A stretch of DNA of 21,076 nucleotides from a virus. Made by a program: the position numbers and the translations under genes. Numbering within the stretch: the first letter of the stretch is position 1; each line of letters starts with the position of its first letter. Positions 4,725 through 8,183 of this stretch are shown in pieces. A model generated the notes under the pieces. It worked only from the letters and a program-made list of their open reading frames with translations. It ran no database searches and was not told where the DNA came from. Location of the stretch: IMG/VR virus record IMGVR_UViG_3300047562_003363, positions 1-21,076 of that record; one strand, written 5' to 3'.

Positions 4725-6200
4725 TCAAGAGATCCGGATCTTATGTATCTCATATTCAAAGTGTTCGCTATTATAAATATTGATTCTCTCTAGAAAATGA
4801 TTCATCGTATAATTATTTTTACTTCTGACTGATAAGTCATCAGCAATATCATAGAGTGTAGCAAATGTTTTTTGTTCGTTCTTTCTTAATACTCTGCCTA
4901 TTGATTGCAATGTACGAATTCTTGATTTACTAGGACTGGCAAAGATAATGTTATGAAGATTCTTGATATTGATGCCTGTTGAAAAGGTTCCGTATGATGC
5001 AACAATAATACAGTTTTCACTTTCTTCCGTCAGTCTTCTTGTTTCCTCCCGTATCTCAGTATCAGTTCCACCATAAATGTAATGAACAGGTCGATCAACT
5101 GAATCTTTGATTTGATTGTATAGTTGTTCTCCATGCTTTTCTACAAACTGAAATAAAAGAAGTGTATTGTTTTTAAGTCGAAGTGTAAGATCACAAATAA
5201 ATTTATTTCTTTTGTTATGTGATGTCAAAAAATCCATCTCTTCATGATATGACATTTTCTTGACAAGTTTTCTTTCTTCATCACTATAAGAAAGAACTAA
5301 TGCCTGAATGTTTAAATTAGCCAACGTATTGGTTTGCATCAATTCTTTTGTTGATACTACTTTTTTTACAGGTCCAAAAAGACCTTCAAGCACAAGACGA
5401 TGAGTTTGTGTATCATCAAGTGTTCCTGTTAGTCCAAACCTGTATTTAGTCTGATGAAGTTTATGCATAATTGATGCAAGGGATTTGGCTTTGAATAAAT
5501 GACATTCATCACCAATTACTGCACCAAATGGATTAAAATAGCTGGTTGGAAATTTATAAACAGATTGCCATGTAGAAATGACAACAGGATGTGTTATGTT
5601 ACGATCATGACCAGAATAAATTTTTTGAATGTTTGATTCTTGCCAACCATAGTCAACAAAGTCTTTTGCTAATTGTTCAACCAAAGATGTAGTTGGAACA
5701 AGAATTAAAATTTTATCTTGACTTGTTTCTTCTAGAATATTTAAATAAAATCTAACTAAGCAGTATATGATAAGTGATTTGCCTGAAGCAGTAGGACTGA
5801 TAAGTAATGTCCTATTGTTTCTGATTGCGTGTGCCAAGGCATCAATTTGATAGTCACGAGCTTTGACATTCTTTCCGCCAGATTTAAGTTTAAGATATTT
5901 TGTGAATGATTCAACATCTTTTGTAGAAATGGAAACTGTATCATTTAATAATTCCTCTGAAAGTGTATATTCTATTTCTTGTTGTTGAAGGTATTCGGTA
6001 AGATATGAAAGAAGTCCAACATATAATTCACCTGTCATCACATTAAAAAGTCTTATTTTACCGTCCCATATTTTATTTCTGACAGCAGGCATGAATTTTG
6101 CACCTGGAACTTCAAAAGTAAAATATGCAGATATTTGTCTTGCTTCGGATGGTTCGCAATTGACTTTTAAATATACTTCATTCTTTTTTTCAATTTCCAT
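4725..6200 (-). CDS. uvsW: UvsW, recombination/branch-migration helicase
   Basis: The 491 residues (T4 UvsW: 503) form a superfamily 2 helicase. Motifs in order: Q-like RDYQ (115-118), Walker A SPTASGKS (135-142), VPTTSL (168-173), DECH (231-234), LTGT (257-260), and motif VI QSIGRVLR (432-439). An N-terminal domain of about 100 residues containing RNKIWDGKIRL (41-51) is the UvsW-specific DNA-binding part. UvsW unwinds R-loops and migrates branched DNA, ending origin-dependent replication and promoting recombination-dependent replication late in infection. The start overlaps the upstream membrane-protein gene by 11 nt. The stop at 4725 lies just before the inverted repeat at 4639-4692. Confidence 0.95.
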   Translation of the reverse strand: MEIEKKNEVYLKVNCEPSEARQISAYFTFEVPGAKFMPAVRNKIWDGKIRLFNVMTGELYVGLLSYLTEYLQQQEIEYTLSEELLNDTVSISTKDVESFTKYLKLKSGGKNVKARDYQIDALAHAIRNNRTLLISPTASGKSLIIYCLVRFYLNILEETSQDKILILVPTTSLVEQLAKDFVDYGWQESNIQKIYSGHDRNITHPVVISTWQSVYKFPTSYFNPFGAVIGDECHLFKAKSLASIMHKLHQTKYRFGLTGTLDDTQTHRLVLEGLFGPVKKVVSTKELMQTNTLANLNIQALVLSYSDEERKLVKKMSYHEEMDFLTSHNKRNKFICDLTLRLKNNTLLLFQFVEKHGEQLYNQIKDSVDRPVHYIYGGTDTEIREETRRLTEESENCIIVASYGTFSTGINIKNLHNIIFASPSKSRIRTLQSIGRVLRKNEQKTFATLYDIADDLSVRSKNNYTMNHFLERINIYNSEHFEYEIHKIRIS

Positions 6201-6675
6201 TTTTTTCTGGTAAATAATGTTTCACATTCATTTCATGAAGAACCAACTCTCCTCCCTTAGATTTATTGGTTCCAAGTCCAGCTTTTTCACCTTCATTCTC
6301 TTTTTCTGATTCTGAAAACTCGCCTTCTATTTGTTGCCCTTCCATTAGTTTATCAGATACTTTTTCTAGTTCTCTGTGAGTATCAGCATCATATGCTATG
6401 AAAATTGCCTTTGGTAAATTTTCATTTTCTTGTTGTATCCAAAAATATATTTTATCATCTTCTTCATTTACCATGAATGAAATTAATCTGAATTTTTTTT
6501 CATTTGTTTTGAGAACTGGATATCCAAAAACAGAATCAAAATAAAAATAAGATCCTGCAATAAAAAATAATGTTAATGGAATAATGTATACTAAATGTAT
6601 ACTTGCTCTTAATTCAATTATAAGATAAAGAAAGATGCTAAGTAGCACCAAACTTGAAATGATTAAATAAGTCAT
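6190..6675 (-). CDS. Two-helix membrane protein of unknown function, third gene of the ExbBD-like cassette
   Basis: I do not recognise the family. The 161 residues begin with two membrane helices (about 2-20 and 26-46) joined by a short turn. A soluble domain with alternating hydrophobic strands follows (about 60-110), including a Phe-Trp-Ile-Gln strand (IYFWIQQ) and IFIAYDADTHREL. A Glu/Lys/Gly-rich linker runs from about 112 to 140, before a short hydrophobic C-terminus. It overlaps the ExbD-like gene by 4 nt (ATGA) upstream and uvsW by 11 nt downstream. This arrangement suggests it is translated with the ExbB/ExbD-like pair and may be an accessory subunit of that complex. That role is inferred from position only. 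Confidence 0.85.
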   Translation of the reverse strand: MTYLIISSLVLLSIFLYLIIELRASIHLVYIIPLTLFFIAGSYFYFDSVFGYPVLKTNEKKFRLISFMVNEEDDKIYFWIQQENENLPKAIFIAYDADTHRELEKVSDKLMEGQQIEGEFSESEKENEGEKAGLGTNKSKGGELVLHEMNVKHYLPEKNGN

Positions 6676-7304
6676 GGTCGTGAAAATATTTGTTGTTCGG
6701 CACCTGACATGATACCAGTCTTTTTTCTTACAATATCTTTTGGCAGATAATTTAGTTTTAGTATATTACCAACGGAATCAATTGTAAATCTGACAAATGT
6801 TTCTTCCTGTGAACGATAGTCAAAAAGTTTTGATCCTTGATAGATTTGAATATAAGGATTTAATTTGATTACTTCTATGCTAACATCAGTTTTAATATCC
6901 TCATCTCCGTTTGAATAATAAAATGCGTTGACAACATATTCTCCAGGAACTATTCCACGAATGTTTACAACTTCACGATTTATATGTACAATTTTTCTAA
7001 CACTATTTTCAAGATATGTGTCATTCCGATGACCAAGATCATCACGATCAAGAAACATGTTTCCTTGTTGTGGAGTAGTAAATCCAACATGTCCTGTTGG
7101 GCCATCTATCCATAAATCAATATCTTTGTTGGCTTTAGCATCCCAACTTAGAATAATCATGAATTCTGCTTTTTGTTCAACACCTTCATTCTTTACAGGA
7201 TCATTGATAAGAATAAAACTGATAATAAAAAGAAAAACAAAGCCAAGAATCAGATTGAACAATAAGTCAATGAATGCAAGATTACTATTGTAGGTTCGTT
7301 TCAT
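6672..7304 (-). CDS. ExbD/TolR/MotB-like membrane protein with extracytoplasmic beta-rich domain
   Basis: I choose the ATG at 7304 (210 residues); a TTG 9 nt upstream is possible. The N-terminus has one membrane helix (about 11-33) that begins with FIDLLFNLILGF. Asp13 there lies where ExbD, TolR and MotB carry the Asp that takes protons through the stator channel. The rest should face the periplasm. It has ILSWD (51-55), DIDLWIDGPTG (61-71), LDRDDLG (85-91) and a GEYVVNAFYY strand (121-130), resembling the beta-sandwich of YfaP/DUF2135-type proteins, not the ExbD periplasmic domain or the peptidoglycan-binding OmpA domain of MotB. It overlaps the ExbB-like gene by 20 nt with no clear ribosome site, so coupled translation is likely. 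Stator function is inference. Confidence 0.85.
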   Translation of the reverse strand: MKRTYNSNLAFIDLLFNLILGFVFLFIISFILINDPVKNEGVEQKAEFMIILSWDAKANKDIDLWIDGPTGHVGFTTPQQGNMFLDRDDLGHRNDTYLENSVRKIVHINREVVNIRGIVPGEYVVNAFYYSNGDEDIKTDVSIEVIKLNPYIQIYQGSKLFDYRSQEETFVRFTIDSVGNILKLNYLPKDIVRKKTGIMSGAEQQIFSRP

Positions 7305-7728
7305 TTTTTGCAATTATGAGTTGGCACTTGATTAGTACACTGGAAATCAATCCTACAAGTGTAGTTAAAAGTGCGGTTCCCATACCTTTTGCCATTAGCA
7401 TCATGCTTTGTTGTAGTTTAGCAGGATCATCAACATTCAATTCTGAGAATGCAGCATATAGCATGAAAATGAATCCAACAACAGTTCCAATCATTCCTAG
7501 ACTAATTACTACTTCTGATGCGAACCATTCTATTTCAAAGTCATGATTATTTTTGTAATATTTGTAACCAATAATGATTGTAGTAAAAAATAGAATGGCA
7601 ATAATTACAAAACTTAGTTTGGTGAAGTCATTTGCATATAAGAAATTTATAAATGAAAAATACCAAGTCACTGCACCCGACAAAATCATCAGAATGAATA
7701 TTAACCACCATTTAAGAAACAGATTCAT
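7285..7728 (-). CDS. MotA/TolQ/ExbB-like proton-channel protein
   Basis: The 147 residues have four predicted membrane helices (about 5-28, 36-57, 72-93, 113-137) with short loops. The last two carry the family signature: LGMIGTVVGFIFML (77-90) and MAKGMGTALLTTLVGLISS (112-130). These resemble the G-x-x-GTV-x-G and G-x-x-x-AL-x-TT-x-GL motifs of TolQ/ExbB/MotA, whose Thr and Gly residues line the proton path. The large cytoplasmic loop of TolQ and ExbB is missing, so this is a minimal form. The start at 7728 has AGGAGA 8 nt upstream and lies 9 nt after uvsY. It overlaps the ExbD-like gene, its expected partner. Together they would form an inner-membrane complex driven by proton flow. What it acts on is unknown. 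Confidence 0.88.
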   Translation of the reverse strand: MNLFLKWWLIFILMILSGAVTWYFSFINFLYANDFTKLSFVIIAILFFTTIIIGYKYYKNNHDFEIEWFASEVVISLGMIGTVVGFIFMLYAAFSELNVDDPAKLQQSMMLMAKGMGTALLTTLVGLISSVLIKCQLIIAKNETNLQ

Positions 7729-8175: not shown

Positions 8176-8183
8176 TATTTATA
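8176..8183 (-). promoter_or_regulatory. T4-type late promoter before uvsY
   Basis: An exact TATAAATA on the minus strand, 27 nt before the uvsY ATG. It overlaps the stop codon of the gp3-like gene. Confidence 0.7.

Follow-up and report, generated by a model that had tools for sequence, protein, structure and literature searches.

A three-gene cassette with a MotA/TolQ/ExbB-like subunit, shared by phages and Alphaproteobacteria, as a candidate ion-driven envelope machine

The stretch of DNA analysed here (the window), a virus record 21,076 bases long, comes from a T4-like phage whose major capsid protein shares 74% identity with that of Methylophilales phage Melnitz and 70% with that of Pelagibacter phage Mosig. 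A first-pass annotation, made from the letters alone, had placed three overlapping genes between uvsY and uvsW. We confirm three overlapping minus-strand ORFs at these positions, termed A, B and C below, in the following setting:

4725..6200, minus strand: uvsW helicase, the downstream neighbour, assigned by family searches
6190..6675, minus strand: C subunit, 161 aa, two transmembrane (TM) helices, no family match
6672..7304, minus strand: B subunit, ExbD/MotB-type, 210 aa from an ATG at 7304; AF2 model, Asp13 and a profile match
7285..7728, minus strand: A subunit, ExbB/MotA/TolQ-like, 147 aa; matches to Pfam, PDB profiles and PADLOC, and helices
7738..8148, minus strand: uvsY, the upstream neighbour (Pfam UvsY, 3.5e-35; PHROG, 2.5e-43)
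8176..8183, minus strand: octamer TATAAATA, resembling a T4-type late promoter, upstream of uvsY, not clearly above chance

The reading frames overlap by 20 bases (A and B), 4 bases (B and C) and 11 bases (C and uvsW), with a TTG at 7313 as a possible alternative start of B, and hydrophobic helices number four in A, one in B and two in C. Because uvsY directly adjoins uvsW in Melnitz, and only one unrelated gene separates the two in HTVC008M, the cassette is an insertion with respect to these close relatives. The annotation had further set the cassette downstream of a late promoter and taken this to favour a late role. The octamer is indeed present, but it lies upstream of uvsY rather than directly upstream of the cassette, and the window holds five copies against 1.8 expected, with at least five reached in 5 of 100 shuffles. 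It is possible that this copy is the promoter of a run comprising uvsY, A, B, C and uvsW. The argument for a late role is weak, as other phages carry the cassette in different settings: flanked by gp15-like and gp16-like genes in a second T4-like clade, near replication genes, or behind the lysis genes.

The description of A as a four-helix MotA/TolQ/ExbB-like protein held up well. Its residues 75-132 match Pfam MotA_ExbB (PF01618) at 31.6 bits (cut-off 22.9, E = 1.5e-7), the match being limited to TM3-TM4; hydropathy predicts four TM helices; and the motifs GTVVG (containing Thr82) and ALLTTLVGL (containing Thr122/123) are present, as is an invariant Asp34 in the TM1-TM2 loop. A profile built from 19 A proteins retrieved MotA from the PDB (8gqy, 8.1e-6), along with PomA, ZorA and TolQ, and homologues from other loci also match MotA_ExbB (L001, 5.1e-6; L024, 5e-6; L030, 9.4e-9; cellular L077, 6e-8). 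By homology, A is a member of the MotA/TolQ/ExbB superfamily (ExbBD, TolQR, MotAB/PomAB, AglRS), with which it shares the sequence and motifs of TM3-TM4 and the four-helix layout of MotA, while the Asp-bearing helix of B and the A-B gene order are further common ground. In contrast to known A subunits, the phage-encoded version has nearly lost its cytoplasmic domain: the region between TM2 and TM3 spans about 16 residues in the clade of the window and about 16-22 across T4-like phages, from which the MotA-type domain present in cellular homologues is absent. Measured from the Asp34-type motif to the GT motif, the spacing is 37-49 residues in most phages (up to 63 in some), as against 58-155 residues, with a median of 113, in cellular A proteins. 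Every phage A row except one retains Thr123. At the position of Thr82, most 16-3-like phages have Asn and Pootjesviridae have Ala.

The AF2 model of B (mean pLDDT 82) comprises a TM helix at residues 6-33, with Asp13 at its start, and a periplasmic beta-sandwich at residues 46-185, in line with the earlier proposal of a partner carrying a membrane Asp. Conservation of this Asp was pivotal to that proposal: it is invariant in 19 divergent B proteins and in all phage rows with a complete N-terminus, and is found in 89 of the 103 B proteins overall. The other 14, which belong to one cellular clade (L061, L063-L065, L067-L070, L074, L075, L117, L118, L120 and L139), have Val or Ala in its place and keep the remainder of the module. 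Either the Asp is dispensable for some members or this clade works differently, which raises the question of what powers its version. The B protein of L032 matches Pfam MotB_plug over residues 11-36 (9e-4). In L029 (3885-3960), the B frame is broken inside the TM helix by a deletion and a frameshift, of natural or assembly-derived origin.

The strongest conservation in B lies in the sandwich, where all 103 proteins share W54, D61, D63, D88, E111, R116, G121, N126 and E167. The annotation had likened this domain to YfaP/DUF2135, and profile comparison supports it: hhalign gave a probability of 94 (E = 1.5e-7) in a single comparison with a template profile of three sequences, the match running across the whole sandwich and including the W..(D)xDL and PGxYxVxxxYY signatures; a direct Pfam search of B gave no DUF2135 match. 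Unlike DUF2135/YfaP, the cassette sandwich is tethered to a stator-type helix within a three-gene unit. It likewise stands in place of the ExbD/TolR or OmpA-like domain of known B partners: neither the ExbD/TolR fold nor an OmpA-like peptidoglycan domain was matched in Pfam, and the model is a beta-sandwich. The nearest fold is that of TerD, to whose structures the predicted sandwich aligns over 133-143 residues at Z 9.8-11.8 (best Z 11.8, rmsd 3.6, 141 residues aligned to 3ibz; next group 6.9), a likeness that by itself shows no function. Membership of B in the TerD family by sequence was rejected (hhalign probability 0.4), and TerD is cytoplasmic whereas the B sandwich is periplasmic. Foldseek alone returned no match at E ≤ 0.001 for the models of B or C. 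The acidic residues of the B sandwich might, as in TerD, coordinate a metal, calcium for instance.

In C, TM helices at residues 2-22 and 27-50 are followed by a small OB-like domain and then by a tail that varies between homologues and ends in LPxK in 62 of 104 proteins. The model has a pLDDT of 73, and its resemblance to OB folds is weak (best Z 6.4). Pfam, PHROG and further family searches gave no match for C, including none to TonB or TolA, both of which it differs from in sequence.

Contig scans with A, B and C separately recovered 60 viral contigs with the module. All three genes occur in identical order and on the same strand in 52 of these, the other 8 being cut by the contig end, and contigs found through A alone also carry B and C; the ExbB-like gene regularly occurring without its ExbD-like partner, which would have told against a stator, was thus not seen, the co-occurrence being strict. 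Iterating the HMMs over their own loci inflated the E-values, but a single round started from 8 seed loci had been enough to recover nearly the same set. Across 79 loci, the between-gene evolutionary distances of A, B and C correlate at r = 0.84-0.89, against a highest value of 0.09 in 500 shuffles, and dN/dS values of 0.06-0.32 across the three genes indicate purifying selection on each. Conservation of the module in 60 viral contigs, together with this selection on all three genes, excludes chance, and these comparisons show A, B and C to travel as a single unit. Among the functions that the annotation offered as speculation is dissipation of the proton gradient, and one account of the cassette would have A and B do nothing else. 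An unloaded A/B channel could leak, to argue from superfamily membership, but a pure leak needs neither the periplasmic sandwich, the most conserved part of B, nor C, which is never lost from the viral contigs once contig-end cuts are allowed for; we consider this account very improbable.

Searched against 50,697 named phage records, B matches only Rhizobium and Sinorhizobium phages: about 28 records, all infecting Rhizobiaceae, from Pootjesviridae, RHph_I1_18, the N3_19 group, the temperate 16-3 group and X2_25. Their module genes are annotated as hypothetical proteins (p038, p040 and p042 in phage 16-3). All named carriers have alphaproteobacterial hosts, which points to a target in envelopes of this type. 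The largest carrier contigs reach 254 kb. The T4-like contigs have the cassette at two sites, between uvsY and uvsW in the clade of the window and between gp15-like and gp16-like genes (L024), and the B proteins of both groups form one clade (support 100/99); hence, either the location moved within the lineage or the cassette was exchanged. In Pootjesviridae, the module lies among replication genes, and the genes for the late sigma factor and gp47/gp46 come immediately after it (L005, 6987-7475; L003, 7072-7554). These genes are also found in the window phage, just past uvsW, in a region loosely similar to that of Pootjesviridae.

In 16-3-like phages and prophages, the module instead comes after genes for a lysozyme and for Rz-like and holin-like proteins, and after one for a trypsin-like protease that bears a signal. 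This last setting would fit an accessory of lysis or egress, a motor that would loosen or break up the envelope as progeny are released. However, phage TM3_3_14B already encodes a SAR-type lysozyme, an Rz-like protein and an Rz1-like lipoprotein, the module otherwise keeps company with uvsY/uvsW or gp15/gp16 genes in T4-like phages and with replication genes in Pootjesviridae, and a near-core chromosomal copy (see below) is hard to square with a lytic agent. Given that at least one phage of the 16-3 type brings its own lysozyme together with Rz-like and Rz1-like genes, and that bacteria keep the operon as a near-core set, we regard a lytic role as distinctly unlikely, and our guess is that exclusion of later phages or upkeep of the envelope is the likelier function.

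The trypsin-like protease, with a signal-like N-terminus, lies directly upstream of the module in L002 (4181-5080), L004 (4018-4728) and L034-L052. It is possibly a functional partner in the 16-3-like lineage. We rejected it as a fourth component of the module, since it adjoins the latter only in 16-3-like phages: in P10VF, the protease is at 49 kb and the module at 124 kb, and no such protease was found in the T4-like contigs, which are partial records.

Another reading is a defensive role, as superinfection exclusion or an anti-competitor system akin to Zorya. The best PADLOC matches of A are ZorA2 models (2.5e-8, residues 26-136), Zorya ZorAB is likewise a motor of this superfamily outside flagella, and temperate and lytic phages alike carry the module. 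Yet the 147-aa A has no ZorA cytoplasmic tail, the cassette has neither the peptidoglycan domain of ZorB nor ZorC nor ZorD, B and C match no defence family in PADLOC, and no effector is a conserved neighbour. We consider a Zorya-like system unlikely; exclusion by the cassette without a Zorya-type effector may occur and belongs to the reading that we favour below.

The phages are only part of the distribution. The operon was detected in 61 of the 385 alphaproteobacterial genomes sampled (about 16%, a handful of them weak domain-only matches) and, by a whole-genome search with the B alignment, in 32 of the 297 genomes of the order to which Rhizobium belongs; phylum-wide, 25 of 398 genomes match, about nine of these weakly and through a short part of long proteins. 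Within one genus it comes close to being core, with 35 of 41 genomes carrying it. In those cellular loci that were inspected, A, B and C follow one another in this order, the ExbB-like subunit is larger than that of the phages, and the flanks hold unremarkable chromosomal genes, among them suf genes, sfsA and aspartate dehydrogenase. No conserved cellular neighbourhood was found, except for Sel1-repeat genes in a few genomes (just upstream of the operon in L079, L080, L084 and L086), nor did the family libraries and open-access papers searched yield a name for the operon. Comparison of these loci shows what is by homology the same operon to be chromosomal in many Alphaproteobacteria, the phage form having a smaller cytoplasmic A domain. 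The annotation was accordingly right that the cassette is no copy of a host Tol, Exb or flagellar system, but it missed that the cassette copies another host system, an unnamed three-gene operon common in alphaproteobacterial chromosomes. In the B tree, whose long branches leave exact placements unsure, 16-3-like phages fall near one cellular clade, with modest support (83/82), and the remaining phages near a large cellular clade. This suggests more than one host-to-phage capture, with phages having repeatedly borrowed a bacterial machine.

These host copies also invite the idea that the phage proteins are decoys, or dominant-negative subunits that poison the host version of the operon, an idea to which the loss of most of the cellular cytoplasmic domain from phage A lends some colour. 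In Rhizobium, however, the host of many carriers, the module occurs in only 3 of 148 genomes of the genus, all as prophage-type copies. With no chromosomal copy there to imitate or poison, the phage-borne genes must function by themselves. The purifying selection on all three phage genes likewise speaks against decoys, which we judge the least probable of the alternatives.

We propose, with a probability of roughly 0.6, that the cassette encodes a machine of the inner membrane, driven by ions, akin to MotA/TolQ/ExbB and of 5:2 type, with an unusual outer part, a role that we infer only by analogy. ExbBD, TolQR and MotAB are the established analogues for ion-driven movement of B. In recent work the three are treated as 5:2 motors (PMC9389320), and the non-flagellar branch of the superfamily has varied added domains (PMC12505986). 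In the proposed machine, A subunits, probably five, would surround two B helices, and ions would enter where Asp13 on the B helix faces the conserved threonines in TM3/TM4 of A. The resulting movement would drive the periplasmic sandwich of B, together with C, against the envelope, with C, through its two helices, OB-like domain and tail, taking the place of the TolA or TonB of analogous systems. In the infected cell or lysogen, such a machine might alter the energised state or the architecture of the envelope to the benefit of the phage, most likely by blocking later infections or by keeping the envelope in order until lysis. Against this reading count the confinement of the Pfam match of A to TM3-TM4, the replacement of Asp13 in one cellular clade, the variability of Thr82 and a gene neighbourhood that differs between phage groups.

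More tentatively, at close to but short of even odds, the cassette may represent a virus-encoded ion-driven, possibly rotary, envelope motor repeatedly captured from an undescribed three-component Tol/Ton-like system of Alphaproteobacteria. Most phages use or evade the stator-type motors of their hosts, and to our knowledge none is known to encode one; in the full text of open-access papers (subscription papers and preprints being outside this scope), we found no report of a phage-encoded ExbB, ExbD or TolQ. The finding links an undescribed alphaproteobacterial chromosomal operon with phages of several unrelated groups, and if it is truly a third Tol/Ton-like system, it would constitute a new force-transmitting design in the superfamily. 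As the well-studied phage 16-3, which grows on Sinorhizobium meliloti, carries the module, its function is directly testable.

Two further observations concern neighbouring genes. In L004 (1099-1699), the products of EVB67_005 and EVB67_006 of MN988496, annotated as 'endopeptidase' and 'hypothetical', resemble an Rz/Rz1 spanin pair, with a TM segment and coiled coil in one and a lipoprotein-like signal in the other. In the window, a 352-aa minus-strand ORF at 1870-2928 matches no PHROG and lies between a gene of unknown function and the gp47-like (SbcD-like) gene.
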